Assembly: GCF_013409505.1 (NCBI RefSeq)
Contig: NZ_JACCBN010000001.1
Location: 434,001-498,000, forward strand
Length of the DNA stretch: 64,000 nucleotides
Origin: Actinomycetospora corticicola
GTDB lineage: Bacteria > Actinomycetota > Actinomycetes > Mycobacteriales > Pseudonocardiaceae
Direction: 5' to 3'
Under the pieces are notes generated by a model. It was given only the letters and a program-made list of their open reading frames with translations, was not told the DNA's origin and searched no databases. How positions within the stretch are numbered: position 1 is the stretch's first letter; every line of letters begins with the position of its first letter. Shown here in pieces: positions 7,123 through 32,698 of this stretch. A program made the position numbers and the translations under genes.

Positions 7123-7353
7123 ATGGTGGAACGCCTCGCAGCCCGCTTCGCGACGACGCCGATGCGCCTGCTCCTCGCGGGCTGGGCCCTCGCCGCGGTC
7201 CTGCTCCTGGCGGGGCTCGCCCTCGTCCTCACCAACGCCTCGCCCCTCGTGGGCTTCGTGCTGTTCATCGTCGGCGTGGTCCTGACGATGGGTGTCGCGG
7301 TGAACCTGCTCCGCCTCCGGGCCGCGGAGCACGCCCGCAAGACCCCGGAGTAG
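7123..7353 (+). CDS. Small two-helix membrane protein
   Basis: 76 residues with two strongly hydrophobic segments (about residues 15-37 and 42-63) joined by a short turn, and a basic C-terminal tail ending ARKTPE. No enzymatic motif is visible. The ATG at 7123 lies 21 bp after the preceding stop, so the two small genes are probably cotranscribed. The strong hairpin at 7477 ends this transcript. Confidence 0.65.
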   Translation: MVERLAARFATTPMRLLLAGWALAAVLLLAGLALVLTNASPLVGFVLFIVGVVLTMGVAVNLLRLRAAEHARKTPE

Positions 7354-14532: not shown

Positions 14533-14642
14533 GCTCACCTCCCCGCACGAGCACCGTAGGCCGCGTGGCCGGTGGCCCTCCCACCGACACCCCACGGCGA
14601 CCATGATCAGGAGAGCACAGGGGTCCGACAGTCACGTCCGGA

Positions 14643-18644: not shown

Positions 18645-18816
18645 GGCTGCCTCCACGAGGTCGGGTCCCGTCGATGGAACGCCGCTCGTGCGCGGATGTC
18701 CAGAGATGGCACGTGATCGCAACGAACCCGGCCCCGGGACGCTGATCGCCGACCCGGGACCGGTCGCCCGATAGGGTCGGCGACGCGGCGTCCCCACCCG
18801 GTGCGCGGGCCCGCAC

Positions 18817-18894
18817 GGGGCAGTAGCTCAGCTGGTCAGAGCAGCGGACTCATAATCCGTCAGGTCGTCGGTTCGAGCCCGACCTGCCCCACCA
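18817..18894 (+). tRNA. tRNA-Met (anticodon CAT)
   Basis: The acceptor stem GGGGCAG/CTGCCCC, D arm GCTC...GAGC, anticodon stem GCGGA/TCCGT with loop CTCATAA, T arm with GGTTCGAGCCC and an encoded CCA give a complete cloverleaf. The CAT anticodon and stem resemble actinobacterial elongator tRNA-Met; a lysidine-modified tRNA-Ile cannot be excluded by eye. Its 3' part is the attachment site of the integrated element that follows. Confidence 0.92.
18855..18889 (+). repeat. attL: 35-bp core in the tRNA-Met 3' part
   Basis: The core begins ATCCGTCAGG and ends CCCGACCTGCCC. It covers the anticodon 3' strand, T arm and most of the acceptor 3' strand, so integration keeps the tRNA functional. It is identical to 32664-32698; the next base is C here and T at the other end. 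Confidence 0.93.
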
Positions 18895-18957
18895 TTTACC
18901 CTGGTCAGCGACCTGCGCTAGGTCTGCTACCAACATCAACACCCACTTTATCCCCAC

Positions 18958-20130
18958 TTATTGCACGCTTTCCTCGTCGAAGCCTGATCCGAGCGCGGCG
19001 TCGAAGGCATCTGCCGCCGCCCGTCCGTCGGCCCGCTTGTCCATGTAGACGTCCTGGGTGATCGAGGGCCGGGCGTGCCCGATGTGCCCGGCGATCGCGC
19101 GGGCGGAGAGCCCGGCCTGGTCGAGGATCGTGGCGGCGGTCTTGCGGAAGACGTGGCTGGTGACCCACTCGTAGCCGGCCGCGTCGAGGGCCTCACGGAG
19201 CCGGGCGCCGGTGTTCTGCGGGTCGCGCCAGGACCCACGCCCGAGGTCGTGGCCGCGCGAGTTGGGGAAGACCATCGAGGTCGGGACCACGTCGTCCGGG
19301 CGTCGCTCGCAGAGCATCTCCACGACGAAGGCGGGCAGCGGCAGCAGGCGGCGCGCGGCGAACGTCTTGCCCTCGTGGCGGACCAGCCCCACCCGCTTCA
19401 CGCGCACGATGTTGGCGACGATCGCGACCTCGCCGGCCTCCCACGCCACGGCGTCGTCCTGGAGCGCGATCACCTCGCCGATCCGGGCGCCCGTCCCGAG
19501 CATGAATCGGCAGAGGTCGGGCAGGTCCCGGCGGTACGCGTCCTCGTCGGCGTCGAGCTTGGCCAGCAGGTCGACCCGCTCGGCGCGGACCAGGGCGCGC
19601 ACGGTCGAGGTGGTGCCCTCGATCCGCCCGGCGTCGCGGACGGGGTTGGTGGGGATTGCGCCGAGGCGGGCGGCGTACCCGAGCACCCCGGAGAGGACCG
19701 TGCGGATGCTGCGGACCGTGTTGGCCGCGAGCCGGATCTCACAGGCGCGCAGGAACGCGTCGACCCGCGCCACGCTCGCTTCCCGCAGCCGCAGGGCGCC
19801 GAGGGCCGGGACGACGTGGTTGCGGGCGTGCAGGGCGTACGTGTCGTACGTGGTGCCGCGCCGGCGCCGCTTGACCTCCTCCAAGAACAGGGCCACGACG
19901 TCGGCGATCTTCGAGTCGCCGGTCACGGCGCCACCGGTCGGCGTGGTCCGCTCCTGCAGCGCCTTCTTCAACGCCCGTTCAGCAGCCGCCCGGGACCGAC
20001 CGGAGCGCTCGACCTCGCGCGTGACGCCGTCCCCGTCGCGGACCTTCGTCTTGGCCCGGAAGCCGCCCGAGGCCAGCTCGTAGGTGCGGACCTTCCCGTG
20101 GGTTCCGACCGGCAGCGGTGGACGGCCCAT
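18958..20130 (-). CDS. Tyrosine-recombinase integrase of the AICE
   Basis: 390 residues starting at an ATG two bases after the excisionase stop. The N-terminal part (~60-150) is a SAM-like core-binding domain. The catalytic domain has GTGARIGEVIALQ (first Arg), HVFRKTAATILD (His-x-x-Arg), GHIGH and DVYMDKRA, whose Tyr is the nucleophile. Length is normal for pSAM2-type integrases. It lies right beside attL, transcribed towards the tRNA, and would catalyse recombination between the 35-bp cores. It is the last gene of the minus-strand operon starting at 22864. Confidence 0.95.
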   Translation of the reverse strand: MGRPPLPVGTHGKVRTYELASGGFRAKTKVRDGDGVTREVERSGRSRAAAERALKKALQERTTPTGGAVTGDSKIADVVALFLEEVKRRRRGTTYDTYALHARNHVVPALGALRLREASVARVDAFLRACEIRLAANTVRSIRTVLSGVLGYAARLGAIPTNPVRDAGRIEGTTSTVRALVRAERVDLLAKLDADEDAYRRDLPDLCRFMLGTGARIGEVIALQDDAVAWEAGEVAIVANIVRVKRVGLVRHEGKTFAARRLLPLPAFVVEMLCERRPDDVVPTSMVFPNSRGHDLGRGSWRDPQNTGARLREALDAAGYEWVTSHVFRKTAATILDQAGLSARAIAGHIGHARPSITQDVYMDKRADGRAAADAFDAALGSGFDEESVQ

Positions 20131-20132
20131 CC

Positions 20133-20324
20133 TCAGGCCACCTCGTCGGAGAGCCCGTCGAACCACGCTTCGACGTCGGCCGGGTCGAAGCGCACGTAGC
20201 GGCCGACCTTCTTGCCCTTCGGGCCGTAGCCCTGTGAGCGCCAGGCGTAGATCGTCTTCGGCGGCACCCCCAGGAACTCGGCGAGGTCCTGGACGGTCCA
20301 GAGCTTGGCGAGACGAGGGTTCAT
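20133..20324 (-). CDS. Excisionase / AlpA-like winged HTH protein
   Basis: 63 residues: the N-terminal LWTVQDLAEFLGVPPKTIYA is a helix-turn-helix and GKKVGRYVRFDPADVEAWF is the wing, as in MerR/AlpA-type excisionases of actinobacterial elements. It ends two bases before the integrase ATG, the usual xis-int arrangement. It probably bends the att region to drive excision. Confidence 0.88.
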   Translation of the reverse strand: MNPRLAKLWTVQDLAEFLGVPPKTIYAWRSQGYGPKGKKVGRYVRFDPADVEAWFDGLSDEVA

Positions 20325-20327
20325 GTC

Positions 20328-20678
20328 TCAGTCCTCCGTGATGAGTCGGCCGAGGTGGCCGAGCTGGTTGTGGGCGGTGGTGAGCTGGTCGTGGAGCGGG
20401 CCGAGGTGGCGGTGGGCTTCGACGAGGGCGTCGTCGGCGCGGTCGAGGGCCTCCGCGGGGTCGCGGCCGCGGTCGTCGTAGTGCGCGGCGACCTCAGCGC
20501 GGCGCAGGGACCGTGCGAGGTAGTCGAGGAGCTGGGGCAGCCGCCCGGTCAGCTCGACGAGGTTCCCGACGACGGCGAAGGCGCCGGGGCCGTCGACCAG
20601 GCCGTGGTGGGAGGCGTGGCAGGCGTCTCTGAGTGCCTCGGCGGCGCGTTCGACATCGCGGGCGACGGGGTGGCTCAT
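20328..20678 (-). CDS. AICE hypothetical protein, helical
   Basis: 116 residues, hydrophilic, largely helical by composition, with several His and Asp clusters (HASHHGLVDG, YDDRGRDPAEALDRADDAL) and a predicted coiled coil near the C terminus. Its ATG overlaps the preceding stop (ATGA). Small proteins of this sort are common between tra and int genes of AICEs. I recognise no domain. Confidence 0.65.
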   Translation of the reverse strand: MSHPVARDVERAAEALRDACHASHHGLVDGPGAFAVVGNLVELTGRLPQLLDYLARSLRRAEVAAHYDDRGRDPAEALDRADDALVEAHRHLGPLHDQLTTAHNQLGHLGRLITED

Positions 20679-20896
20679 CGCGCCTCCTGGACGTTGGCGG
20701 CGCGGTCGGCGGCGGAGCCGAGTTGGCGGGCGAACTCGGCGGTACCGGAGGTGACGGCAGGCCCGAGTGCGGGGATGGCGGCGAAGAGCAGGCAGACGGT
20801 GACGATCCCGGAGAGGGCGGCGGGGCCGGCCTTGTGGCTCTTGGCGAGCAGCAGGGTCACGAGCAAGGCGATGACGACGAAGGCGGCGAGGTTCAC
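20675..20896 (-). CDS. AICE small membrane protein
   Basis: 73 residues with two hydrophobic stretches (about 3-19 and 28-48). The GTG start overlaps the stop of the translocase gene. A small membrane protein right after traB recalls the Spd proteins that help plasmid spread along mycelium, but there is no sequence motif to prove it. Confidence 0.65.
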   Translation of the reverse strand: MNLAAFVVIALLVTLLLAKSHKAGPAALSGIVTVCLLFAAIPALGPAVTSGTAEFARQLGSAADRAANVQEAR

Positions 20897-22107
20897 GACG
20901 CCCTCCTGCCGTGGCGTGCGATCCGGTCGCAGAACTCGCCGTAGTCCCCGAGGTAGGGCGCGCGCAGCCGGGTGCAGTCGTGGCCCGGAGCCGATAGGTA
21001 GGCGATCCCGGGGGCGCTGTTGGCGTGTTCGGGGCCGAGCTTGCGGGCGTCTTCGCCGTGGAGCATGACCAGCGATTCGCCCGGCACGCGGAAGGAGAGG
21101 CGCAGGGCGAACTGGTCGCGGGCGTAGCCGCCTCCGACCGCGTTGGCCTCGAACCGCTGGGCCAGCATCAGGACCCGGAACGCGGCCTTCCGGCCCTCCG
21201 AAACGAGGCGGAGCACCGCGGAGGTGATCCGCTCAGCGAGCTTCTTGTCCTTCGCCTGGGCCGCCCGCAACAACCCCGGGAACTCCTCCAGCACGACGAG
21301 GACGAGCGGGGTCGTCGTGGTCGGGATGATCTTGTCGCGGCGCGGCGGCATGGTGTCGAGACGGCGGTCCATCTCGGCGACGAGCCGGTCCAGGAGCGCG
21401 GCGTGGGCGAGCAGGTCGCGGGTGCCGGTGGTCTGCCAGTCGTGGTGAGCGGTGCCGGTCCAGGCGCGGCCTAGGACGAGGCCGGTGATGTCGGAGCCCG
21501 CGATGAGGACGTCGGGGGCGGCGCAGACCTGGGCGAGCAGGCCGTAGGTGAAGGCGGACTTCCCGGCGCCGTTCTGTCCCTGGACGGCGAGGTGGGCGGC
21601 GTCGGCGAGGGCGTGGCCGAGGGTGACCCCGTCCTCGGCGCGGCCGAGGATCACGGTCTCGTCGGCGCGGGTGGTGATGAGCCGGCGGAGCGCGAAGCCG
21701 TCGCGGAGCGGGTCGGAATCGAGCAGGACGATGCGGACCCACCGGCCGCCGATCGGATCGACGCGCAGCCCGTGGAAGCCGAGGGAGTGGGCGAGCCGGA
21801 GTGCGTGTTTGGTGATGTCCTCGGGCTCGCCGCCGGGCAGCAGCTCCGTGGTGAACGTCGTGCGGCCCCTGACGACCCGTAGCGCGCCGAAGCGCGGAGT
21901 CCGCACGGTGAGCCCGGCCGCGACCGAGATGTACTGGCACAGGCCGACTCCGGCGCAGGCTTCGCGCCACAGCCCTCGCAGGTCGTCCTCGAGGCGGGCG
22001 TGCGCCTCGAGTCGGCGCTGCTCGGCCCAGCGGGCGCGGAGGCCGTCGAACAGGCCGCGGCTCCCGCGCCAGTCGCGATGAAGCGGCCGGGTTGCAGGGG
22101 TGGTCAT
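20893..22107 (-). CDS. FtsK/SpoIIIE-type DNA translocase, TraB-like
   Basis: 404 residues starting at an ATG overlapping the WhiB-like gene stop. The motor domain has Walker A GQNGAGKSAFTYGL and Walker B LVLVVLEEFPGLL, plus LRLVSEGRKAAFRVLMLAQR in the position of the FtsK/TraB sensor region. AICEs move double-stranded DNA through one hexameric ATPase of this family at mycelial contacts, so this is the presumed transfer protein. It is at the short end for TraB and has no obvious membrane segment. Anchoring may come from the small membrane protein encoded next. Confidence 0.85.
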   Translation of the reverse strand: MTTPATRPLHRDWRGSRGLFDGLRARWAEQRRLEAHARLEDDLRGLWREACAGVGLCQYISVAAGLTVRTPRFGALRVVRGRTTFTTELLPGGEPEDITKHALRLAHSLGFHGLRVDPIGGRWVRIVLLDSDPLRDGFALRRLITTRADETVILGRAEDGVTLGHALADAAHLAVQGQNGAGKSAFTYGLLAQVCAAPDVLIAGSDITGLVLGRAWTGTAHHDWQTTGTRDLLAHAALLDRLVAEMDRRLDTMPPRRDKIIPTTTTPLVLVVLEEFPGLLRAAQAKDKKLAERITSAVLRLVSEGRKAAFRVLMLAQRFEANAVGGGYARDQFALRLSFRVPGESLVMLHGEDARKLGPEHANSAPGIAYLSAPGHDCTRLRAPYLGDYGEFCDRIARHGRRAS

Positions 22108-22469
22108 CACGCGGCCCTCCGTTCCTGGCAGCGGGTGCAGAGGTCGCCGTCGACCGCAGGTAGGGCGAACAGCAGCGAGCAGGCCGGACACATCGGTTCG
22201 GCATCGGCGACCGAGTCCGGGACGCCGGCCAGGCGTCCGCGACGGATGGCGCGGCGATCGGTGGGGGTGGTGGCGGCCCAGAGGCCGTGTTCCTGCCCTG
22301 TGTCGAGCGCCCAGCGCAGGCAGTCCGTGGAGACCTGGCAGCGCGAGCAGATCGGCGCGACGGCCATTTTGTGGCGCGCAGCGATCAGGCTGGTGTCGTC
22401 GTCGGTAGGCGGGAAGAACAGCTCCGGGTCGGCGTCGCGGCACGCGGCCCGGGCCTGCCAGCCGGTCAC
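22107..22469 (-). CDS. WhiB-like protein with an added C-terminal zinc ribbon
   Basis: 120 residues. Cys10, Cys41, Cys44 and Cys50 give the four-cysteine iron-sulfur signature (C-x30-C-x2-C-x5-C) and HGLWAATTP is a variant of the GVWGG turn. After the basic segment RRAIRRGRLAG comes a second cysteine set, CPAC (94-97) and CTRC (111-114), which looks like a zinc ribbon and is not part of a normal WhiB protein. The GTG start overlaps the upstream stop. It probably regulates transfer or excision genes in response to redox or NO state. Confidence 0.85.
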   Translation of the reverse strand: MTGWQARAACRDADPELFFPPTDDDTSLIAARHKMAVAPICSRCQVSTDCLRWALDTGQEHGLWAATTPTDRRAIRRGRLAGVPDSVADAEPMCPACSLLFALPAVDGDLCTRCQERRAA

Positions 22470-22864
22470 GCCGCCTCACCCTCAACAGCGCGACGACCCC
22501 GGGCGGGAGCAGTGGCGGGTCGGATGGACTCGGCAGAGAAGGCGACGTCGACGCCCTTGCCGCCGTTGCGGGCCTGGCGGACCTTGGCGACCAGGCCGAC
22601 GAGCTCCACCGGGGCGTAGGGCGCGAGCTCGGGGACCTCGTGGGAGATGACGCGCACGCCGTGCAGCTCGTGGCGGCCGTCGCGACCGGTGGGGAGCATG
22701 ACGTCGTAGACGCGGACCGGGGCGCCGGTGGCCTCGTCGATGAGCGGCTGGCCGGAGGAGCGGCGTCCGGCGGGGGTGTCCTCCCAGCGCTCCATGGTCT
22801 GGGCGTGGCCGGTGGCGACGCCCTGCATCAGGTTGGTGTCGATGGGTGCGTTGAACTCGAACAT
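22466..22864 (-). CDS. AICE hypothetical protein, first gene of the transfer operon
   Basis: 132 residues, beta-rich (VRVYDVMLPTGRD, ELHGVRVISHEVPELAPYA, PVELVGLVAKVRQA) with a basic disordered tail (APARGRRAVEG). The layout would fit a small OB-fold nucleic-acid-binding protein, but there is no diagnostic motif. It is the promoter-proximal gene of a chain in which each downstream gene overlaps or nearly abuts the last, ending with xis and int. It is divergent from the XRE-TPR regulator. Confidence 0.65.
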   Translation of the reverse strand: MFEFNAPIDTNLMQGVATGHAQTMERWEDTPAGRRSSGQPLIDEATGAPVRVYDVMLPTGRDGRHELHGVRVISHEVPELAPYAPVELVGLVAKVRQARNGGKGVDVAFSAESIRPATAPARGRRAVEGEAA

Positions 22865-22897
22865 GGACCAACCGTGCTGGCGAATGCCGGTCGTCTC

Positions 22898-22970
22898 GTA
22901 GTCCGTGGAAGTCGTCCCCGCCTAGTCCCGGAACTAGTCCCTACGAGCGCAGTCGATCATTTATGCTAGA
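22898..22970. promoter_or_regulatory. Divergent promoter region with CTAGTCCC direct repeats
   Basis: CTAGTCCC occurs at 22922-22929 and again at 22934-22941, with a weaker CGTAGTCCG at 22897-22905. Around the second copy is the palindromic word ACTAGT. TATGCT (22962-22967) is a -10 candidate for the regulator gene. The repeats lie between the transfer operon and the XRE gene and are plausible binding sites for that regulator. Confidence 0.5.
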
Positions 22971-22976
22971 TCCGAA

Positions 22977-24398
22977 GTGTCCAGAGCTATCGGCGGTGAG
23001 CAGGACATGTCCGGTGTTGAGAACTGCCCTTCGTTGAAGGCTCTGCGACAGCAGCGCCGCTGGACGCAACGCTTCGTTGCCGAACAACTCCAGGCGCTCG
23101 CGTTCCACAAGTACAAGGATCGCTCGGCTGCCGTGAACGCGGACATGGTCTCGAAGTGGGAACGCGGGGAGAAGGGCGTGAGCCCGTTCTACTGCGATCT
23201 ACTCTGCACGCTTTTCGAATCGGATGCCGCGACCCTGGGCCTGCCCGTCGCGGCGCCCCCTCCCACCACCTCGTCTATGGTTGCGTCCGAGCACGGTGCA
23301 GACATCGACCTGGCCGGAGCAATGCAGGAGACCTCAGCATTGCTCTCGCAGCTCGGTCCTGCGGCCGTCCTGCTTGAGCCGAGAATGGTCGATGTGTGGA
23401 GGAGCGAGGCAATGCGCCGCAGGACGTTGTTGAAGCTGGCCGGGCTGGCGCCTGTCGCTCCTGCGGTGTCAAAGCTCGGGGGCCGGTCCACGTCCTCGGC
23501 GGTTGCTTCTATTCGCGACCTCGACGACCTGGCCGACCGATACCAAACGCTCTACCACTCCGCGAGACCGGCGACGCTGATCCAGCCCGTCCTCGCTCAC
23601 CTCGAAACCGTCGGCGACGCGGTCCGTAGCGCGCGGGATGCGGTATCACGGACGAAGCTCCTGGCCAATCGGGCGCGCGTGTCGTTGCTTGCCGGCCGCC
23701 TGTCGTTCTTCGACCTGGACGACCCCATGTCCGCTCGCGGCTACTACAACCTGTCCGTTGAGGCAGCGTCAGAAGCGGGCGACCGGCACCAGGCCGCCGC
23801 AGCACTAGGGCACATGGCATTCATCCCGGCTGCCGAGTACGGCATGTCCGCCGCGCTCCAGTACCTCGACGGTGCGAAGTCGCAGGTTGAGCGTGACCCG
23901 CACGGTCCACTGACCTCATGGGTGCACGCCATCGAGTCCGAGTTCCACTCGCACGCGGGCAACCATGGCGCAGCGCTGCGAGCCATCGACGAAGCGAAGG
24001 CCGCTTACGCGTCCACAGCGCTGCAGCGCGATCTCAGGTGGTTCGATTACTTCGACGAGAATCGTTTGGCTGGCTTCGCGGGCTACGCCAATCTGCAGGC
24101 GGGTCGTTACGACGACGCGGCGACCGAGCTGCACGACGCACTCGACCTCCCAATGTCCGCAATTAAGCAGCGGTCGGTGTTCCTCGCCGACCTAGCGACT
24201 GTTCATCACTACGCAGGTGACCTGGACCGCGCCTGCCAGATTGCAGGAGACGCAGCGGACGAGCTGCGCCGTGCCGGCTACGCGCCTGGAGTTGGTCGCC
24301 TCCGTGAGTTCCATGATCTAGTCTCGCCGCACAGCTCAACGCAGGCTGTCCGGGTCTTCTCCGAGCGGCTTGCGGCCCTGCAACTGGAGGAGGCCTAG
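22977..24398 (+). CDS. XRE-family regulator with C-terminal TPR-like domain
   Basis: 473 residues (463 if the ATG at 23007 is used). Residues ~18-75 are a helix-turn-helix (LRQQRRWTQRFVAEQLQ, then NADMVSKWERGEKGVSPFY). From ~170 on, repeated helical pairs such as AARDAVSRTKLLANRARVSL and ALQRDLRWFDYFDENRLAGF form a TPR array, which in such regulators binds a peptide or other effector. Actinomycete plasmids and AICEs often carry this type as the switch between maintenance and transfer. It is divergent from the transfer operon and immediately followed by a HAD gene. Confidence 0.8.
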   Translation: MSRAIGGEQDMSGVENCPSLKALRQQRRWTQRFVAEQLQALAFHKYKDRSAAVNADMVSKWERGEKGVSPFYCDLLCTLFESDAATLGLPVAAPPPTTSSMVASEHGADIDLAGAMQETSALLSQLGPAAVLLEPRMVDVWRSEAMRRRTLLKLAGLAPVAPAVSKLGGRSTSSAVASIRDLDDLADRYQTLYHSARPATLIQPVLAHLETVGDAVRSARDAVSRTKLLANRARVSLLAGRLSFFDLDDPMSARGYYNLSVEAASEAGDRHQAAAALGHMAFIPAAEYGMSAALQYLDGAKSQVERDPHGPLTSWVHAIESEFHSHAGNHGAALRAIDEAKAAYASTALQRDLRWFDYFDENRLAGFAGYANLQAGRYDDAATELHDALDLPMSAIKQRSVFLADLATVHHYAGDLDRACQIAGDAADELRRAGYAPGVGRLREFHDLVSPHSSTQAVRVFSERLAALQLEEA

Positions 24399-25064
24399 GT
24401 GCCCATTCGCGCTGTCTGGTTCGACGTCGGCGAAGCACTGATCGACGAGACGCGCGAGTACGGCACGTGGGCGGACTGGCTCGGCGTGCCTCGGCACACA
24501 TTCTCAGCGGTTTTTGGTGCAGTTATTGCCCGAGGAGAAGATTATAGATCTGTCTTCCAGCATTTCCGCCCCGGCTTTGACCTGGCGAAGGAACGACAGG
24601 CTCGTTTGGAAGCCGGCCAAGGCGAGTATCTAAACGCACTAGACCTTTACGCGGACGTTCGGCGCTGTTTAACTAGTCTCCAACGGGCCGCGTTTTTCGT
24701 CGGCGTCGCAGGAAATCAAACAGAGAGAGCTGGACGATTCATTCGCGAACTAAATTTGCCGGCCGACGTTATCGCCACCTCCGATGATTGGGGTGTCGCT
24801 AAGCCTGACCTGGCATTCTTCACCAAGCTAATCGAAGTATCGCAATGCTCACCAGCAGAGATTCTCTACGTCGGTGATCGACTGGACAACGACATCTCTC
24901 CGGCTTCAGCCTCAGGCATCAAGACCGCGTTGATCTGTCGAGGACCCTGGGGAAAGATCCTTTCCGCCGATTCCTTCGAAGTGAAACCCGATCTCATACT
25001 AGATAATCTCGACGAACTGGTGGGGGCTCTCTGCGGTGCAGACCCTTCCAGAAACGGGCTGTAG
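24399..25064 (+). CDS. HAD-superfamily hydrolase, AICE cargo
   Basis: 221 residues. Motif I is VWFDVGEALIDE: the nucleophile Asp is present but Gly replaces the second Asp, as in several HAD subgroups. VAGNQTERAGRF, DDWGVAKPDLAFF (Lys) and ILYVGDRLDNDISPA complete motifs II-IV. The GTG start is immediately after the regulator stop, so the two are cotranscribed. Codon use changes within this gene from GC-rich to clearly lower GC, marking the start of the foreign-looking cargo. The substrate is unknown; coupling to the regulator may mean it makes or removes a signal. Confidence 0.8.
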   Translation: MPIRAVWFDVGEALIDETREYGTWADWLGVPRHTFSAVFGAVIARGEDYRSVFQHFRPGFDLAKERQARLEAGQGEYLNALDLYADVRRCLTSLQRAAFFVGVAGNQTERAGRFIRELNLPADVIATSDDWGVAKPDLAFFTKLIEVSQCSPAEILYVGDRLDNDISPASASGIKTALICRGPWGKILSADSFEVKPDLILDNLDELVGALCGADPSRNGL

Positions 25065-25065
25065 G

Positions 25066-26184
25066 GTGTCGGAATTCCGGACATTCTCTGGGTGGCACGA
25101 TGCTGCTCTTCTCGGAACGCTCGGCAGTGAGCTTCGGGGATGGCAGGAAGCCCCAAGCGCCCAGATAGTTTGGAATGAAATTGACTTTCTATCTTCAGTT
25201 AAGTCAGCCGGAACTAACAGGTTTACGGGGACACAAAAGGAGCGCAACCGAAAATGGCAGGCGGTAAACGATTTCACTCGACAAGCCAAGGCCTATTACG
25301 ACGCGCTTGAGCACGTGCGAGGTACTTCTAGAGCGCTCCTCGCTTACTACGCCTTCCTGAACCTCGCAAAGGCGGAACTGGTCCACTCCCATCCCGACCA
25401 AGTGATCGAGCAAAAGATTAAGCATGGGCTTTGGTTCGATGTTGGTCGTCAGTCGACCATAAGAAGTGATCAAGTAAACGTGCAGGACGGCGTCTTTCGT
25501 CTCCTCTACGAAGCCCGCACGGGCGAAGTGCTGACGAGAGGATCGACTTTGCAGGTTCAGCGCCTACTCGGGCACGTACCTGAAGTCGGACACGAATACT
25601 ACCGCGCATTCGGGGACCGTAGCTCAGTGGTCCGTGGTTGGTGCCGGATTCTGCAAAACGGCTCTGCCGCTTGGCCGGTGCTCCTTCTAGATTGTTCTCG
25701 GCGCGACCTAGACAAGATCGGCGGCTCGAAGCGTATAGAGGCTTCTTTCGAGCACGTCGAACTTCCACCGAACTGGCGACTGTTCGCTGCGAATATTGGG
25801 GCCCATACTCGTCCGCAGATCGTCCTACAGAGCAAGAGAACTTTTGATATCGCTAGTCCTAGATGGGGATACGACGCATTCCATTGGGCTTGCGCAGCGC
25901 TGGGCAACCGCGTGCACATGGCCGTCGAGAACAATGCCGATTTTCTCTACGTGCCTGACCTTCTAAAGTCGCGCAAGTCAGCAATGCCGCCATCTTTAGC
26001 CCGGTACGCTATCATGTTCTACATATCGTCGCTGGTACGCTATCGGCCTTCTCGACTAAATCCTGAACGGCAGCAGCTAACTGTGTGGCTGCTTGAGGCT
26101 TTCGCACAACAATCCCCCCTCTTCATGCTAATTGATTCGCTAGCTGGCCTCGATCAAGCTCCGCACATGTTTAACATGCTTTGA
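25066..26184 (+). CDS. YaaC-like protein
   Basis: About 372 residues from the GTG at 25066, two bases after the HAD stop; a GTG at 25036 would overlap it. The helical segments LLAYYAFLNLAKAELV, GVFRLLYEARTGE and PSLARYAIMFYISSLVRYRP followed by WLLEAFAQQSPLFMLIDSL have the order and spacing I know from Bacillus YaaC-like proteins. No catalytic motif is evident and the function of the family is not established. The gene is AT-richer than its flanks and lies ~125 bp before the PIN-Mrr nuclease in the same orientation, so the two may form one cargo module. Confidence 0.7.
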   Translation: MSEFRTFSGWHDAALLGTLGSELRGWQEAPSAQIVWNEIDFLSSVKSAGTNRFTGTQKERNRKWQAVNDFTRQAKAYYDALEHVRGTSRALLAYYAFLNLAKAELVHSHPDQVIEQKIKHGLWFDVGRQSTIRSDQVNVQDGVFRLLYEARTGEVLTRGSTLQVQRLLGHVPEVGHEYYRAFGDRSSVVRGWCRILQNGSAAWPVLLLDCSRRDLDKIGGSKRIEASFEHVELPPNWRLFAANIGAHTRPQIVLQSKRTFDIASPRWGYDAFHWACAALGNRVHMAVENNADFLYVPDLLKSRKSAMPPSLARYAIMFYISSLVRYRPSRLNPERQQLTVWLLEAFAQQSPLFMLIDSLAGLDQAPHMFNML

Positions 26185-26297
26185 GTGAGACACGTCCATT
26201 GCTCCCAGGACCTTCGCGACAGCTTGAGCTTAGTCTCCCCATAACGGAGCTGCGGTGCTACTGACCTAGGGGGTTTCGCTTCGCTGTTCCTGATGCT

Positions 26298-26303
26298 TAA
26301 AAT
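26298..26303 (+). promoter_or_regulatory. -10 element (TAAAAT) for a leaderless nuclease gene
   Basis: TAAAAT lies six bases before the GTG at 26310, so transcription would begin at or beside the start codon. The 125-bp gap after the YaaC-like gene is AT-rich in this part. The nuclease therefore probably has its own leaderless promoter besides any read-through. Confidence 0.55.
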
Positions 26304-26309
26304 GATCAG

Positions 26310-27734
26310 GTGACATCGGAATCGGAGCACGAGCTCTCAAGGAGCCTCAGGCGCAACTACTGGTCATGGACTGGCATGAAGACGTCGGTAGGTCAGGAGC
26401 AGATCACCGAGGGCATGGTCGTCTTCGATACGAATACCCTACTCGCGCTCTACGAAGTGGGAGCAAGTTCGCGTGGGGAGATTCTTGCAGTTCTTGGACT
26501 CCTGGGAGACCGTCTTTGGTTGCCACATCAGGTCGCGCTTGAATTCTCTCGGAATCGAAGGCGAGTCGTTCTCGATCGAGTAAGTAGATTTAAGAAGGCA
26601 ACTCAGTCGATCAGGAGTGCAACTGCTGAGGCGGTCGACGTCCTGGAGAAAGCGGTTGGCGTTGTAGTCTCGTTGCGGGCCAGAAACCGCACCGCTCGTT
26701 CGTGGAGCGCGGCAGACGTCGGTCTAGACAGAGAATCGCTTGCACAGAGGCTTGAGGGGGCGCTTGGCGCAGCGCTAGCTGAAGTGCGAGCGTTAGAAGC
26801 AGAGCATGACCTACGTCCCGTGGATGTTTCTGGACTCGACCAATTGTTCGAAGAAGTCGATTCACTTACGGCTGGCCGAATTGGCGCACCTCCGTCCTCT
26901 AAGGTCTTACGTGACCGAGTTAGAGAGGCACTAGATTTCCGATATCCTAATAGGATTCCGCCTGGATACCTCGACCGCGGTAAGGCGACTGAACTAGAAG
27001 GTGCCGGAGACTACTTACTGTGGCGCGAAATTCTTGATGAGGCCAAGCGTCGCCAGGCCTTACAGAGTCGTGTACTTCTCGTCACAGACGAGGAGAAGCC
27101 AGATTGGTGGGTTATAAACGAGCGAGACGAGATATTGCACGCGCGACCGGAACTAGTGCAGGAGATGGAGTCGGAAGCTCCCGGAACTCAGCTGACCCTG
27201 ATTTCGTTGTCGGCGTTCCTTCACGCCGCCCGCGAATACCTAGCTGCCAGCGTTTCTGACGAAACAGTGGAAGACGTGGTGGCTAGCGTTTCGAGAGATT
27301 CCACGTATGATTTAGACGTCCAATTCTTCGAATTATTGCGGAGTCGATCCTCGGCGTTTCTAGACAATCTCCGGCATCTGTTCCTAGCAATGGGGTACTC
27401 CGTTGATGAACGTCGGACCAATCGAGATGAAGGTTTCGATCTGATCCTTATCGACCACACGGGCCCGCTGCCACGCACTGTTGGTGTCGAAGTCAAGATG
27501 TACTCGCGACCGGTTCCAGCCCAAGTTCTTGACCAAGCGGTCCGGATGGCCAGCCGCGCTAGTGTGGACGAAGTCATTATCGTCACGACAGGCCACTTCT
27601 CATCTCGCGCTAGAAATCTGGCCGAATCTCGTGGCGTTCAACTAATAGATGGCCGGGAACTAAGACGGCTCCACGAGGAATGGCTTCCTCGCGAAGAGCT
27701 TCCCCTAGAATTGCCAGAAGTCGATGATGATTAG
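26310..27734 (+). CDS. PIN_8-domain and Mrr-like nuclease fusion protein
   Basis: 474 residues with two nuclease domains. Residues ~35-270 match the PIN_8 (DUF4935) pattern: VVFDTNTLLALYE (Asp40, Asn42), LWLPHQVALEFSRNR (Glu78), a helical insertion, then PPGYLDR, GDYLLWREIL (Asp234) and LLVTDEEKPDWW (Asp260). PIN domains cut RNA. Residues ~335-455 are an Mrr-type PD-(D/E)xK fold: GYSVDERR, FDLILID (Asp377), VGVEVKM (Glu394, Lys396), VLDQAVRMA, EVIIVTTGHFSSRARNLAES, GVQLIDGREL. Both catalytic sets look complete. Fusion of a likely RNase with a DNase on a mobile element points to phage or plasmid defence. The leaderless GTG start is supported by TAAAAT upstream. Confidence 0.85.
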   Translation: MTSESEHELSRSLRRNYWSWTGMKTSVGQEQITEGMVVFDTNTLLALYEVGASSRGEILAVLGLLGDRLWLPHQVALEFSRNRRRVVLDRVSRFKKATQSIRSATAEAVDVLEKAVGVVVSLRARNRTARSWSAADVGLDRESLAQRLEGALGAALAEVRALEAEHDLRPVDVSGLDQLFEEVDSLTAGRIGAPPSSKVLRDRVREALDFRYPNRIPPGYLDRGKATELEGAGDYLLWREILDEAKRRQALQSRVLLVTDEEKPDWWVINERDEILHARPELVQEMESEAPGTQLTLISLSAFLHAAREYLAASVSDETVEDVVASVSRDSTYDLDVQFFELLRSRSSAFLDNLRHLFLAMGYSVDERRTNRDEGFDLILIDHTGPLPRTVGVEVKMYSRPVPAQVLDQAVRMASRASVDEVIIVTTGHFSSRARNLAESRGVQLIDGRELRRLHEEWLPREELPLELPEVDDD

Positions 27735-27769
27735 CTGTCAGTGTCGTACTTATACTCGCCTGCCGCAAC

Positions 27770-29158
27770 TCACGCCCCGAATCCTCGGAGAATCGATCGG
27801 GAATCATCACGCATGCAGTCAGGTTGGACTTGCACGCGCGAAGGACCATCGCCGGGTTCGGCGAGGAACCAGGCCAAGCCATAAGTATCTAGCCACCTTC
27901 GGGCGCCATTGACGCCGTCACGTTCGGCAGCGGCGAGCAATGTGGTCTCCCGGCGAGCAGCAACGATTGCTGCCCAGGCGTCGCGGGGAACCGCAATGCG
28001 TTCCTCGGCCTCCTGGTCTTCGGCGGCGATCTCTTCGTCGCTAGTTTCCTTCCCAAGTCCGGCAAGTGCGCGCAGGTCCCGGCGTCCGGTGGACCAGGTG
28101 AGCTGCCGCCGGCCGTCCGAAGCTGCCTCCCATTCCCACCAGCGAGCCATGTCGCCGGCCTCGTAGGTTTCGATGGTGTCGCCGAGGAGCTGCATCGGGG
28201 TCCGCCCGCCGTGGCGGTGTCCTTCCTTGCGATGCCCGGAGGTGACCTCGTGGGCCATCTTCGTGAAGTAGTCCGCGAGGTCCCCGTCCCCGAGCTGCGC
28301 CCGACGCAGGTCCCACCCGTGCTCCGGGGACGCTGAGAACCCGCGCCGTTCGAGGGCGCGAGACCAGCGACCGAACACCCGGGGGCCAAGTGCGGCGCGG
28401 GCCAGGTCGGCAGAGACCTGCTCCCGGAAGCACAGCAACACGTGGACGTGCACATGCCACCCGTTCGCCCCGTGGGTGACCTCGACAGCGCGAGCCCACC
28501 CGAGGAGCCCTCCGAAGCGTTCGGTGTCGGCCTGCCACATCGCTCCAGAGGTGACCGAGCGCCAGGCGTACGAGAGGACGTCCCAGCCGCCCTCGGAGGC
28601 GTCGAGCTTGGCTAGCTCGTCGTCCTCGCGGGCGGCGGTGTCCTCGTCAACGTCGTCCCCGGCCTGGCGGGCGAGGTCACGGCGCCACGCCCGGTCCTCC
28701 AGCTCAGTCCGTCGGGCTCGTTCGGGGCGGGAGAGGCCGAGGCGGTCGCCTCGGGTGTGGCGCATGGTCAGGGTCAGCAGGAACGCCGACCCGCCGAGGT
28801 CGTCGACGGTGCGCATGACAGTGGCGAGGTCATCGGCGCGGCGGGTGGCGATCTTCGCCGCGCACACCGGGCAGGACCACACCGACCCACACGTGGTGAG
28901 CCCGCCATAGGCGGCGGAGCGGGAGCCCGACGGGTTCGTGATCACCCCGAGCGTCACCCCCGACTCGCTCGTGGTCGACGACCCGCAGGTCCGGATGCGG
29001 CGCAGGCCTGTGAACCTCTTCAACGACCGGCGGCGCTCCCACCGCGACGCCCGAGCCGTCTGGGCCTGGACCAGCTTGTCCGGAGCAGCTGAACCTTCGC
29101 GGCGTCGGCGGTCGGGACGAAGAGTTGTTACCCCTTTACCGAGAGCGGGCCGGGTCAC
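27770..29158 (-). CDS. Rolling-circle replication initiator, RepSA-like
   Basis: 462 residues from a GTG at 29158; the start is inferred, since upstream sequence becomes Arg/Pro noise. TCGSVWSCPVCAAKI is the N-terminal cysteine motif, SYAWRSVTSG follows, GWHVHVHVLL is the metal-binding HUH motif, and LADYFTKMAHEV carries the likely nucleophile Tyr and its Lys. This order is typical of Rep proteins of pSAM2/pIJ101-type replicons. It would nick the double-strand origin and start replication of the excised circle. It faces the nuclease gene, leaving only ~35 bp between stops. Confidence 0.85.
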   Translation of the reverse strand: MTRPALGKGVTTLRPDRRRREGSAAPDKLVQAQTARASRWERRRSLKRFTGLRRIRTCGSSTTSESGVTLGVITNPSGSRSAAYGGLTTCGSVWSCPVCAAKIATRRADDLATVMRTVDDLGGSAFLLTLTMRHTRGDRLGLSRPERARRTELEDRAWRRDLARQAGDDVDEDTAAREDDELAKLDASEGGWDVLSYAWRSVTSGAMWQADTERFGGLLGWARAVEVTHGANGWHVHVHVLLCFREQVSADLARAALGPRVFGRWSRALERRGFSASPEHGWDLRRAQLGDGDLADYFTKMAHEVTSGHRKEGHRHGGRTPMQLLGDTIETYEAGDMARWWEWEAASDGRRQLTWSTGRRDLRALAGLGKETSDEEIAAEDQEAEERIAVPRDAWAAIVAARRETTLLAAAERDGVNGARRWLDTYGLAWFLAEPGDGPSRVQVQPDCMRDDSRSILRGFGA

Positions 29159-29676
29159 CGTGCACCGCCAGCCCTGTACGGGGCCGGCGCTGACGCGCCG
29201 GGGGCGCCCGGCCCCTGCGGGCCGGGCACGCTTCCCCTCCTGTCTTCGACCCGGGGCGCGCGCCCAGCCCGGGGGCCCGGCACCACGACGACGACAGCAC
29301 CAGGCAGCGCCACGACGGCGAGCACCAGGACGACGAGCCCAGCTCGAGGCACAGGGACAGCACCCGCCGGGCCGTGACGCACCGCAGGGCAGTTCAAGGC
29401 CACGCGGCCAAGAACCCCGAGGAACCGGCTTCGCCGGGCTGCCGCGTCGGCGGCGGCTGAGTTTGAACGGCCGTCCCTCACCAGCAAGGGCCGCAAACCA
29501 TCTTCCCCGCCAGCAGACGAGGACCTGGGGGCTACGGGGGAGGGGCGGTGAAGATCGTTTGCTTCCTCCCTTGCTGGCGAGCCTCCGACGGCCGAACGGG
29601 CCGCAGGCGCGGTGGAGCCGGGGACGGCCCCACCCACAGCGCCCGCCGCCGACACGGCACACCACCGGAGGCCCCC
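29159..29676. other. Non-coding region with candidate replication origin
   Basis: This 518-bp gap upstream of the initiator gene has no convincing gene; its open frames are Arg/Pro-rich and lack a ribosome site. The centre (29481-29587) is a long inverted repeat: CCAGCAAGGG (29481) pairs with CCCTTGCTGG (29578-29587), and GCAAACCATCTTCCCC (29493-29508) pairs, with two mismatches, with GGTGAAGATCGTTTGC (29557-29572 region). The loop includes CTACGGGGGAGGGG. Position and shape fit a rolling-circle dso, but a nick site cannot be proved by eye. Confidence 0.45.
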
Positions 29677-30000
29677 ATGACCAACCTCGCCGCCCTCCTC
29701 GACACCTGGCAGCAGTGGAACGCCCACCACGTCATGGCTCACGTCCCCGCGCACGAGGCAGGGGAGCCGGCCGTCAGCGCCCTGGAGGCGTTGCGGGACA
29801 GCCGCGAGCTCGTCGAGCTGCTCAGCGGGTGGCAGTGGCAGGCTGTCCACGCTGCTCGGCGTGACGGGACGAGCTGGGAGCAGATCGCCGCCACGAGCGG
29901 GACCACGGACGAGCAGGCCCGAGCGGAGTACGTGGCCGTGCTCGACCGTCAGGAGGCCGTCCTCGGCCGGGACGTGCGCGCCTACCGCGAGGTCCTGTGA
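29677..30000 (+). CDS. AICE hypothetical protein, helical
   Basis: 107 residues from an ATG with a GGAGG ribosome site 6 nt upstream. The second half, WQAVHAARRDGTSWEQIAAT followed by TTDEQARAEYVAVLDRQE, looks like a sigma-like or XRE-like helix-turn-helix (SWEQIAATSGTTDEQAR). It may be a small DNA-binding protein. It is divergent from the initiator gene across the candidate origin. No firm family assignment. Confidence 0.7.
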   Translation: MTNLAALLDTWQQWNAHHVMAHVPAHEAGEPAVSALEALRDSRELVELLSGWQWQAVHAARRDGTSWEQIAATSGTTDEQARAEYVAVLDRQEAVLGRDVRAYREVL

Positions 30001-30023
30001 CAGCACCACGTCGCGTCGGAGGG

Positions 30024-30059
30024 ATGCCCCTTTCGCAGGAGGCATCTCGGAGGGGGCAT
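30024..30059. terminator. Hairpin overlapping the ribosome site of a small frame
   Basis: ATGCCCC (30024-30030) can pair with GGGGCAT (30053-30059), enclosing GGAGGCATCTCGGAGG. It follows the stop at 30000 and includes the ribosome site and start codon of the frame at 30058. It could terminate the upstream gene or block translation of the next one. Confidence 0.4.
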
Positions 30060-30297
30060 GTCCCAATCCATCGTGTCCGATACGATCGGGCACGGTCGTT
30101 CTCGCGGCCACTGTCCCCCCGGTGGCTGCGGGGGCGGCCGCTCCCACGTCGGCGCCCTCGTACCGATGCGCAACCACGCACGGACTCGACGGAGCGCCGG
30201 CAGCGCGGTCCCGCTCGACGTTGAGCAGCCAGCGTCCGCGGGACCGCGCCTGCACGAACCCGGCGCGACGCCGGTCACGACGAGCGCCGACGACTGA
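30058..30297 (+). CDS. Possible small Cys/Gly-containing protein, doubtful
   Basis: 79 codons from an ATG directly behind GGAGGGGGC. Third positions are about 75% G/C, lower than in the sure genes here. The product has a short CPPGGCGGG stretch and no other feature. Upstream sequence can hide the start in a hairpin. It may be a genuine small AICE gene or only a leader of the ANTAR-like gene; I keep it because of the good ribosome site. Confidence 0.3.
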   Translation: MSQSIVSDTIGHGRSRGHCPPGGCGGGRSHVGALVPMRNHARTRRSAGSAVPLDVEQPASAGPRLHEPGATPVTTSADD

Positions 30298-30445
30298 CAG
30301 GAAGCGTTGCCACATGAGCCGCCATTCGGGTGGCGACACGACTTCAAACCTCCCGTTAGACTCGGTTGTGCACGACCGGAGTCCGGGGGCTCCCGGCAGG
30401 TGTTGCGCCCGGCGCACCTGCGCTTCGACGGAGGGAGCCCGCGAG

Positions 30446-30877
30446 GTGGCAGAACCCGCTGAGTGCACGTTGCTGGAGTTCCTCGACCGGCCGCAGACCG
30501 AGCCATCGCCGGAGTGGATCGCAGCAGCGACCGACCGGGACGGGCCGCAGAGCCAGTCCGACCGCGCCGAACAGGTCCTCGCCGTCCGCCGCGAAGCTGA
30601 GAACACCGAACGGCGCTTGGCGAGTCTCCGCGCCCGTCCGGACGCCTCGCGCGACGACGAGGTGGTGGGCATCCTGGCCGCCGCGTTCAACGTCAGCCGG
30701 GCCCGGGCGTTCGAGTGCCTGCTGTGGATCAGCCAGCAAACCGGGACACCCGTCCCGACGGTGGCCGACCAGTTCATGGCTCGCGTCGAAGTTCTGGGCA
30801 CGAACGCCCACGACCGGGAAGCGCTCCTCGGGCTGCTGTCCAAGCTGGCGGGACCGGTCAACACCTCTGCCCGCTGA
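30446..30877 (+). CDS. ANTAR-like small protein of the AICE
   Basis: 143 residues from the GTG at 30446 behind GGAGGGA; an ATG at 30314 would add 44 residues but that stretch has weaker codon bias. A helical segment (DRAEQVLAVRREAENTERRL) is followed by DEVVGILAAAFNVSRARAFE and LLWISQQTGTPVPTVADQFM. That three-helix pattern, with AxxxF and late A/L positions, is reminiscent of ANTAR RNA-binding domains. If so it would act as an antiterminator. This is a weak structural guess. Confidence 0.55.
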   Translation: MAEPAECTLLEFLDRPQTEPSPEWIAAATDRDGPQSQSDRAEQVLAVRREAENTERRLASLRARPDASRDDEVVGILAAAFNVSRARAFECLLWISQQTGTPVPTVADQFMARVEVLGTNAHDREALLGLLSKLAGPVNTSAR

Positions 30878-30910
30878 ACAACAGGATCGGAACGGCCGCC
30901 ACGGGGTCGA

Positions 30911-31065
30911 GCAAGATCCATGCAGCATTGAGGCAGCACGAGCCCCAGCAGCAGGCTCAGCGGCTCTGGACGTAGAAGCACAAAACAGCGGGTCAGCGCC
31001 CATGCGACGGCAGTGGGGGAGACCCCGGAATCGACCGCGGGCCCGTTCACACCGAAGAGGACGCT
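30911..31065. repeat. Copy A of a ~155-bp duplicated element
   Basis: Begins GCAAGATCCATGCAGCATTG and ends near ACACCGAAGAGGACGCT. It aligns without gaps to 32024-32178 with roughly 16 differences (about 89% identity by hand). It follows the stop of the ANTAR-like gene and precedes, after ~110 bp, a leaderless gene for a two-helix membrane protein. The element has no clear gene on the plus strand. Confidence 0.85.
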
Positions 31066-31176
31066 CGCACTCGCATGGTCGGCGTGGCAGCGCAGAGCCC
31101 GCGCCGCCGGAGGAAAGGCCCCGGAGCCCGTCCGCTTGCGCTGGCGGAACGTTCGGAGCGTCGTACGCTGCCGACC

Positions 31177-31377
31177 GTGTCGAGGTGGCTGCGGTCGTGG
31201 AAGGCGTCCGCGCTCTTCGCCGCCGTCTTCCTCGCTATCGGAGTCTCTTGGCTCGCCGTGGGCCTCTATGACGGGGAGTCCTGGTTCCTCTACCTGTGGT
31301 TCGGCCTCGCCGCGCTCCACGGGTACTTCGCGTGGCGGGACTATCGGCACGAGCACGGGTCCGCTGCGCGGCGCTAG
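31177..31377 (+). CDS. Small two-helix membrane protein, leaderless (module A)
   Basis: 66 residues from a GTG at 31177; TACGCT at 31164-31169 is a -10 placed so that transcription starts at the GTG. Two hydrophobic segments (about 9-28 and 32-50) contain SWLAVGLYDG and WFLYLWFGLAALHGYFAW, followed by the basic tail RDYRHEHGSAARR. No known family. Its gene position after a copy of the 155-bp element mirrors the gene at 32272. Confidence 0.6.
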   Translation: MSRWLRSWKASALFAAVFLAIGVSWLAVGLYDGESWFLYLWFGLAALHGYFAWRDYRHEHGSAARR

Positions 31378-31707
31378 AAGGGAGCGGGTGCTGCGGAACG
31401 TCGGCACCCGTCGCGGTGGCCAGGGAGCCCTACGGCGCGGGACCCGGAACCAACACGGAACGCCGAAGTGGACGAGGCATCGAAGCAGCAGCATCGTCGC
31501 AGGTGAAAGGGCGTCCCTGACGTCAGCGGTCAGGTACTGCGCAAGGACGTCAGCGCCTGCCGCGCGGTGCTTTGAGCTGCCGGGGACGCGGCTGGCCAAC
31601 GCCCTCAGGCATCGACCAGTCCTCGGCGATACGAGCTTTTCGGTCGGATTGCCCGTAAGATCTTGGTTCGCCGGTGCCCCAGCGGCACTGCAGGGAGGAG
31701 CGCCGCC
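31378..31707. other. Intergenic region with hairpin and promoter
   Basis: No gene is supported here. Just after the stop, GCGGGTGC...GGCACCCGT (about 31384-31412) can form a terminator-like hairpin. Towards the right end, TAAGAT (31657-31662), with GAGCTT 17 bp upstream, is a promoter candidate for the gene at 31708. Confidence 0.45.
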
Positions 31708-31983
31708 ATGCTCGCAATCGTCCTGGCCGTGGTCATGATCGCGCTCGTGCTCGTCGGGGCGGTGAGGATCACCTACCAGCGGCGTCACCGCGATGCCGAT
31801 GTCGAGCCTCGCGAGGTTCCCAGCGGCCCGGCCATCGGCTACGTGCCGGGTTACATGCCGGGAATTCAGCAGAAGGCAGAACGGCGCGAGGAGGTGGCGA
31901 CCGAACTGGTCGAGCCCCCGCACCGTCGCGACGCCGCCGTCGACCTCGACTCGAACACGGTGCGCGTACGCCGGAGTTCGTGA
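31708..31983 (+). CDS. Single-pass membrane protein of the AICE
   Basis: 91 residues from an ATG 8 nt after GGGAGGAG. One N-terminal hydrophobic segment (MLAIVLAVVMIALVLVGAV) is followed by a basic stop-transfer (RITYQRRHR) and a ~65-residue hydrophilic domain with GYVPGYMPGI. It would be anchored in the membrane with a cytoplasmic tail. Function unknown; it lies between the two copies of the 155-bp element. Confidence 0.65.
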   Translation: MLAIVLAVVMIALVLVGAVRITYQRRHRDADVEPREVPSGPAIGYVPGYMPGIQQKAERREEVATELVEPPHRRDAAVDLDSNTVRVRRSS

Positions 31984-32023
31984 TCCCCGCTCTGCCGGCT
32001 TGCCGGTCCAGCCCGTAGCCGGT

Positions 32024-32178
32024 GCAAGATCAATGCAGCAATGAGGCAGCACGAGGCCCAGCAGCAGGCCGTGAGGCGCTGGACGTAGGAGCACGAAACA
32101 ACAGGTCAGCGCCCATGCGACGGCAGCGGAGGAGACCCCGGAATCGACCGCAGGCCCGCTCACACCGAAGAGAGCGCC
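32024..32178. repeat. Copy B of the ~155-bp duplicated element
   Basis: Begins GCAAGATCAATGCAGCAATG and ends near ACACCGAAGAGAGCGCCT. It is the second copy of 30911-31065, 1,113 bp downstream in the same orientation. Like copy A it follows a stop codon by a few tens of bases and precedes a leaderless small membrane-protein gene by ~95 bp. Confidence 0.85.
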
Positions 32179-32271
32179 TAGATACTCCGCAGGAGTCCAG
32201 CTAGGCAGAGTTCGCGCAGTCCGTCCCAGGTACTGCGAGCCGGGTGATTCGAGAGGCCTACGGTGCTCGGC

Positions 32272-32475
32272 ATGGCCCGCTCTCGCCGGACGCTTGCGCT
32301 GGCGTCCGCTGCTGTCCTCGCGATCATCGTAGCGGCCATCGTGTTGGACACGCTCGTAGGTAGCGACCTCGTCATGTGGGCCGGGCTGGCGCTGGTCGTC
32401 GGCGCCTGGACGATAATTCTGGTCATGCTGGCGCGACGCTACGGATGGCACAGCGGAGGACCAGGAAACGGCTGA
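32272..32475 (+). CDS. Small two-helix membrane protein, leaderless (module B)
   Basis: 67 residues from an ATG at 32272; TACGGT at 32259-32264 is a -10 that would start transcription at the ATG. After a basic start (MARSRRTL) there are two hydrophobic segments (about 10-27 and 33-54), then RRYGWHSGGPGNG. The sequence is not obviously homologous to the protein at 31177, but size, topology, leaderless start and the preceding repeat are the same. It is the last gene of the AICE. Confidence 0.6.
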   Translation: MARSRRTLALASAAVLAIIVAAIVLDTLVGSDLVMWAGLALVVGAWTIILVMLARRYGWHSGGPGNG

Positions 32476-32500
32476 GGCAGCGTCTACCCCGGCGCTGCCT
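32475..32500. terminator. Terminator-like 8-bp hairpin at the right end of the AICE
   Basis: AGGCAGCG (32475-32482) pairs with CGCTGCCT (32493-32500) around a 10-nt loop, beginning at the last base of the membrane protein stop codon. It isolates AICE transcripts from the chromosome. The rest of the gap to 32885 holds attR and the chromosomal leader of the next gene, and nothing else I can identify. Confidence 0.6.
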
Positions 32501-32663
32501 AGGGCTGGAGCCGATCCAAGATCGTCTCCCCACCTTTCCCCCACGGAAGCGCGAGAAGTGGGCGCAACCGCTCGGTAGGAGCGTTGAGCAGTCGCCAGAC
32601 GTTCCAGCAGCTCACAGGCCACATCACGGGCCGCCGGCAGACGGCCGGTTGCTCCGACGCGAC

Positions 32664-32698
32664 ATCCGTCAGGTCGTCGGTTCGAGCCCGACCTGCCC
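32664..32698 (+). repeat. attR: 35-bp copy of the tRNA-Met 3' part
   Basis: Identical over 35 bp to 18855-18889 but followed by TACCG instead of CACCA, and preceded by sequence unrelated to the tRNA 5' half. It is therefore not a second tRNA gene but the right attachment site. Confidence 0.92.

Follow-up and report, generated by a model that had tools for sequence, protein, structure and literature searches.

Fusions in which one N-terminal domain is combined with varied effector domains, Mrr-type domains included, have been described for AbiJ-NTD and HEPN/Toprim-NTD (PMC3710099). The protein presented here is related to two further groups. With the PIN_8 proteins (PF18476) it shares an N-terminal PIN_8 domain with D40, E78, D234, E/D261 and D265, and with the Mrr-type or type IV restriction enzymes (PF04471; PADLOC mREase_IV) a PD-(D/E)xK domain with its D and ExK residues. 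Its gene is located in a stretch of 64,000 nt from Actinomycetospora corticicola (contig NZ_JACCBN010000001.1, positions 434,001 to 498,000), designated the window throughout, on an element resembling actinomycete integrative and conjugative elements (AICEs). PIN_8-Mrr is a real but rare domain pairing inside a larger family of PIN_8 proteins with a head-and-tail organization, and it is a candidate for a defence function. From its context, we favour, at just short of an even chance, that the protein is a single-gene anti-invader nuclease, which senses DNA and arrests growth, carried as cargo and directed perhaps against phages or rival elements.

The PIN_8-Mrr gene (26310..27734, forward strand) specifies 474 amino acids. 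The PIN_8 domain extends over residues 36-282 (26415..27155, forward; PF18476, E 4.3e-48, 164.7 bits with a curated cut-off of 26.1) and the Mrr-type domain over residues 349-454 (27354..27671, forward; Mrr_cat, PF04471, E 6.9e-19, 68.5 bits with a cut-off of 21), which confirms the fusion named in a preliminary description of the locus. Conservation was assessed in 43 PIN_8 proteins, the one from the window and those from 42 of 48 loci, after six short or redundant loci had been dropped; the loci stem from a non-exhaustive genome scan based on two peptide patterns. D40 is found in all 43 proteins, and E78, D234 and D265 in 42 each. These three earlier assignments, D40, E78 and D234, are therefore retained, but D260, the fourth acid proposed, occurs in 13/43 proteins; conserved instead are D265 and position 261, which is D or E in 41/43 and E in the window protein. 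The residues assigned to the Mrr site, D377, E394 and K396, do not vary among the four proteins from the window, L068, L069 and L076. The profile PF16289 (PIN_12, DUF4935), under which the protein had been placed, gave no match to it at E<=1, and matched 33 of the 43 family members at E<=0.01. It was dismissed as the family of the window protein, since PF18476 fits better. Upstream of the gene, TAAAAT (26298..26303, forward), seven bases before the GTG at 26310, was read from the sequence as a possible -10 box for a leaderless start; a promoter scan reported no site at this position.

PIN_8 matches are sporadic. Considering rows that cover the PIN part, they were detected in 5/296 genomes of the phylum sample, window included, and in 30/397 genomes of the order sample, where three of the matches are short and partial; in the class sample, 25/394 genomes were positive at E<=1e-20. 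Counts of matches reaching through to the Mrr end are lower bounds, because a diverged tail would not align. Such matches were obtained in two of the 397 genomes of the order sample, those of the window and of Micromonospora musae (G419), and in the class sample for the window and for G1007, where the match extends to position 428 of 464. Among 18 genomes searched within the genus, the window genome alone yielded a full-length match, and one of ten did so in the genus of Catenulispora pinisilvae. The 48-locus scan revealed matches through to the Mrr end in L068, L069 and L076. Altogether, the pairing is present in four other loci, L068, L069 (the same as L048), L076 and L182. The D/E/K triad is intact in the proteins from the window, Catenulispora, Micromonospora and a metagenome-assembled genome (MAG) of Streptosporangiaceae. 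In the fifth, L182 (1381-2724), the Mrr glutamate is replaced by valine; the lysine seems to be kept, judged by eye at a place where the MAFFT rows are one column off. The statement that both active sites are complete thus applies to four of five PIN_8-Mrr proteins.

In a tree of 65 PIN_8 rows, the window protein, L068 and L069 form one clade (96/88), with L076 and L182 placed elsewhere, the former with weak support (80/47). A single Mrr clade was rejected with p-AU values of 1.6e-13 for all five rows and 1e-4 for the four that retain the triad; the constrained groups had been defined by domain make-up, not from the tree. Three label changes are needed, which could reflect several independent joinings, exchange of tails, or one gain followed by losses.

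A considerable diversity was observed in the C-terminal parts. Pfam searches of the 43 proteins at E<=0.01 detected Mrr_cat in four and GIY-YIG in one, leaving by subtraction 38 with neither if the GIY-YIG member is taken as distinct; a motif search for a PIN_8 protein bearing a GIY-YIG tail gave no match. The 65 tails longer than 40 amino acids, obtained from 69 proteins including some duplicates, fell into 28 single-linkage BLAST clusters, the largest with 26 members. The possibility that other tails are hidden Mrr folds was discarded, as the Mrr tail profile reached 82% in hhalign with L182 and less than 1% with the other 27 of 28 tail groups; 12 tails from clusters already represented were left out of this run. 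It is conceivable, if doubtful, that PIN_8 proteins constitute an unrecognized polymorphic class of one-gene immune effectors, in which a constant nuclease head is combined with tails that are swapped by recombination and set the trigger. The Mrr version would then be a DNA sensor of the restriction type, wired directly to an RNA-cutting head, which cuts foreign DNA and stops translation. If the pattern of constant head and varied tails does stand for immunity, the widespread PIN_8 family would offer a source of single-gene defences amenable to testing.

The same data bear on restriction of the type IV kind, in which Mrr would cut modified DNA and PIN_8 would serve as a second, FEN-like DNase processing the cut ends, without an RNA target. 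This explanation is consistent with the triad preserved in four of five members and with the five near-invariant PIN_8 acids, which would suit two metals. A weak alignment points in the same direction: residues 15-161 of LlaBIII (PDB entry 4xqk), a type ISP enzyme, align to profile positions 309-452 (E 0.027), with the motif D and K meeting D and K in this N-terminal region. However, L182 has lost the Mrr glutamate, most PIN_8 proteins are without a detected DNase tail, and Pfam found no further domain in PIN_8-Mrr able to read modified bases. Restriction of this type is therefore considered unlikely.

The location of the gene was revealed by comparison with a sister element, L146, inserted at the same tRNA in a congener (genome G785). 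The backbones of the two elements are 76-77% identical over 18808-20338, 20690-24904 and 28005-30000. The segment 24905..28004 is without DNA counterpart in L146 and comprises the 3' end of a HAD gene, the YaaC gene, PIN_8-Mrr and the 3' end of rep; at the place of YaaC and PIN_8-Mrr, L146 harbors unrelated genes, a ZIP-type transporter gene and a DinB-type gene. Since 24905-28004 has no counterpart there, YaaC and PIN_8-Mrr are cargo and the regulator and HAD genes backbone, in line with the location in a cargo region that had been suggested. The lower GC content reported for the segment is also apparent: the three 1-kb bins of 25001-28000 range from 0.546 to 0.563, compared to 0.657 (23001-24000), 0.591 (24001-25000) and 0.714 (28001-29000) in the flanks. 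Inside the HAD gene, from about position 24529, GC content and identity to L146 both drop, which could mark a recombination point. HAD genes on several Streptomyces plasmids, however, match the first part of this gene at 72-76% on the DNA level over about 180 bp (24405-24584), with the remainder diverging, and uneven conservation may therefore account for part of the drop in identity. These comparisons are also pertinent to a function outside defence, such as nucleic acid metabolism aiding transfer or replication of the element. PIN_8-Mrr adjoins the Rep-like gene, as might be expected for such a role, but the sister element with the same backbone has no counterpart and PIN_8 kin occur on unrelated carriers, which makes this role highly improbable.

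PIN_8 homologues were found on other mobile carriers: on plasmids and in apparent prophages, some beside restriction or AIPR genes. On plasmids, 26 records contain PIN_8 matches, none of which covers 80% of the query. On a Streptomyces plasmid, PIN_8 is in the vicinity of an AIPR gene and a restriction endonuclease gene, and a 4.2-kb Psychrobacter plasmid carries just four annotated genes, repM, a 65-amino-acid open reading frame (ORF), PIN_8 and mobV, with the short ORF directly before PIN_8. No PIN_8 match was detected in phage records, and candidates in viral contigs from single-sequence scans could not be confirmed. A profile scan of the viral contigs yielded seven PIN_8 loci. In one of them (L174), the gene lies beside an integrase-like gene according to its translation. 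Two contigs, L175 and L176, look like P2-like prophages from reading their translations, without a family search; their PIN_8 genes (5851-7302 and 5941-7344, respectively) have a low third-position GC content of 0.58-0.59. The PIN_8 gene of L071 adjoins a type I HsdR gene (11472-14600), and the M. musae copy is located 228 nt downstream of a methylase and specificity gene pair recognized by PADLOC, with no HsdR among the proteins scanned at that locus. The island around the M. musae copy (L069, 1366-11371) contains genes for a Schlafen-like protein, an AIPR/AbiU-like protein, a methylase with an HSDR_N_2 domain, a specificity protein and PIN_8-Mrr.

PIN nucleases are common toxins. The gene could accordingly specify a toxin stabilizing the element by addiction, so that loss of the element harms the cell. 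Its position on a mobile element would fit, as would its kin on small plasmids, one of them the Psychrobacter plasmid with its short preceding ORF. Three sets of related loci, with 3 to 4 loci each, also share small same-strand neighbours, and in the window an ORF of 62 amino acids (27724-27912, forward) overlaps the last bases of PIN_8-Mrr, antisense to the Rep-like ORF. The 125-nt gap before PIN_8-Mrr offers ORFs of up to 58 amino acids only. On the other hand, the diversity of tails would be odd for a plain toxin, and no small neighbour is common to most of 68 PIN_8 loci, although the gene caller ignored ORFs below 70 amino acids. Because of the 62-amino-acid ORF and this property of the caller, the toxin explanation gains slightly at the expense of single-gene defence; it is nevertheless judged improbable.

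Single-gene defence by PIN_8-Mrr is preferred because of its conserved catalytic residues, the exchangeable cargo slot, the sporadic spread, and the constant PIN_8 domain with variable tails. The kin on other mobile carriers, in part next to restriction or AIPR genes, and the recurrence of the Mrr pairing in four other loci, with a single Mrr clade rejected by the tree, add to this. In the mechanism envisaged, the Mrr tail would engage, and may also cut, DNA that is brought in by a phage or element and is modified or foreign in some other respect. Engagement of the tail would switch on the PIN_8 nuclease, which would cleave RNA or, less likely, DNA, and this cleavage would arrest either the invader or the cell itself. 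YaaC is regarded as a co-carried neighbour and not as a required component.

Several observations weigh against this proposal. That PIN_8 is an RNase is an assumption based on the PIN fold, and a DNase could be compatible with the conserved acids as well. PIN_8-Mrr has no convincing sequence match in the PDB. The glutamate lost in L182 indicates that the Mrr tail need not cut DNA in every member. Most neighbours of PIN_8 on a Rhizobium and a Rhodococcus plasmid are unrelated, the former with a DUF4297 'anti-phage-associated' gene about 7 kb off, and no neighbour recurs in more than eight of the 68 loci. Finally, PADLOC searches gave no clean enrichment of defence genes near PIN_8: 165 families were matched by 139 proteins near PIN_8, 30 by 134 far genes and 52 by 85 random genes. 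All sets are inflated by redundant models, and enrichment is not cleanly measured by these counts, which refer to families rather than proteins, a single protein matching many models. The near set consisted of 139 of 144 genes, five long ones having been left out, including the type I HsdR of L071 (11472-14600), and the random set of 85 of 92, the seven omitted genes all running to the end of their stretches; neither the near nor the far set includes ten loci that are redundant or partial.

The carrier spans about 13.8 kb (approximately 18855-32698) and ends in perfect 35-bp direct repeats (18855..18889 and 32664..32698, both forward), a pair for which 100 shuffles gave zero matches. The left copy is inside a tRNA-Met gene (18817-18894), and a tyrosine integrase gene (18958..20166, reverse; Phage_integrase, E 1.5e-14) adjoins the tRNA. 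This arrangement substantiates the integrative element proposed before, and the attachment site in a tRNA gene, the direct repeats and the tyrosine integrase are as looked for in an AICE. The designation is restricted to 'AICE-like' because the transfer and replication genes match weakly. An FtsK/SpoIIIE-like transfer protein (20893..22485, reverse) is a weak assignment below the cut-off (PF01580, E 0.014) and had no PDB match at E<=0.01. The Rep-like protein (27770..29665, reverse; Rep_1, E 4.5e-7) reached 30.0 bits with a cut-off of 33.2; a large part of its gene can be aligned to L146. Besides the Rep-like gene, the backbone includes genes for an NsdA-family regulator with helix-turn-helix and tetratricopeptide repeat regions (22977..24398, forward; NF053720, E 2e-55), which has a counterpart in L146, and for the HAD-type hydrolase (24399..25064, forward; HAD_2, E 2.6e-12). 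Positions 30911-31060 and 32024-32172 of the window match the same 150 bp of L146, and the element thus appears to contain a direct repeat.

The corresponding tRNA stretches of 17 other genomes of the genus were also inspected. Two copies of the repeat are present in six (L142, L144, L145, L146, L147, L151) and one copy in the remaining 11, some of which are short, so that a second copy further out is possible. In L141, L143 and L153, both flanks of the window were recognized around the single-copy site. The tRNA-Met site is an integration hotspot in the genus, and the stretches with two copies differ in their contents.

The gene preceding the nuclease gene does specify a YaaC-like protein, as described before (25066..26184, forward; 372 amino acids from GTG 25066; PF14175, E 9.3e-25, above the curated cut-off). 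The first start codon of the frame, GTG 25036, would give 382 amino acids. Depending on the start, the gene follows the HAD gene after 1 nt or overlaps it, and it is separated from PIN_8-Mrr by 125 nt. Weak matches of YaaC residues 22-84 to CagA models (E 0.01-0.08) are most likely due to chance. Apart from that of the window, none of the genomes of the order sample (396 others) yielded a match to the YaaC protein, nor did plasmids. The hidden Markov model (HMM) for YaaC detected 3/396 genomes of the phylum, including that of the window. Of the other two, one carries the gene close to a TrwC relaxase and type I restriction genes, the other at a distance of one gene from a DNA methylase; the latter genome contains a second, partial match (L123), which was screened by tblastn alone.

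YaaC and PIN_8-Mrr might form a two-gene system of a sensor or antitoxin and its effector. They are adjacent on the same strand, share a low-GC segment and both lack a counterpart in L146, and YaaC is rare in the phylum. Moreover, C. pinisilvae, the source of the nearest PIN_8-Mrr in the tree, also has YaaC. Its YaaC frame starts at base 619 of a contig and its PIN_8-Mrr gene ends 5 nt before the end of another, so that adjacency is possible, while no exact overlap of 15-300 nt joins the two ends. Evidence from other genomes, however, does not favour a partnership. The genomes of the remaining three PIN_8-Mrr loci (L069, the MAG L076, and G1007) are without YaaC, and among 50 chosen genomes with PIN_8 genes the HMM detected YaaC in three, those of Bacillus safensis, Saccharothrix deserti and C. 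pinisilvae, in each case on a contig different from that of PIN_8. By tblastn, PIN_8-Mrr is missing at three YaaC loci of the two other actinobacteria; the sensitivity of the tblastn neighbour tests for YaaC was too low, their query having failed to detect YaaC loci that were positive with the HMM. The close spacing of YaaC is, in addition, to the HAD gene. YaaC was therefore not established as an obligate or conserved partner in the candidate module described before, and a two-gene system is quite improbable.

A description of PIN_8-Mrr or of a head-and-tail PIN_8 family was not found in the open-licence literature searched, in keeping with the preliminary description, to which no described system of this composition was known. 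Partial likenesses are evident nevertheless. Five models of PADLOC 2.0.0 match PIN_8-Mrr, all within residues 305-469, and there is no match of the whole protein to a named system; the matches of the PDC-S02 candidates are confined to the Mrr part (residues 350-458, best E 1.6e-9) and do not extend to the PIN_8 part. LlaBIII, with 1578 amino acids, likewise showed no match to the PIN part. From other PIN_8 proteins, the window protein is distinguished by its Mrr-type tail, and from Mrr-type and type IV enzymes by the attached PIN_8 domain; if the pattern of constant head and varied tails stands for immunity, it would link DNA recognition of the restriction type to a second nuclease in one chain. 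The arrangement is reminiscent of the AbiJ-NTD and HEPN/Toprim-NTD fusions, but in the passages of PMC3710099 considered here their constant part is not called a nuclease, whereas the constant part of the PIN_8 proteins has a nuclease fold.

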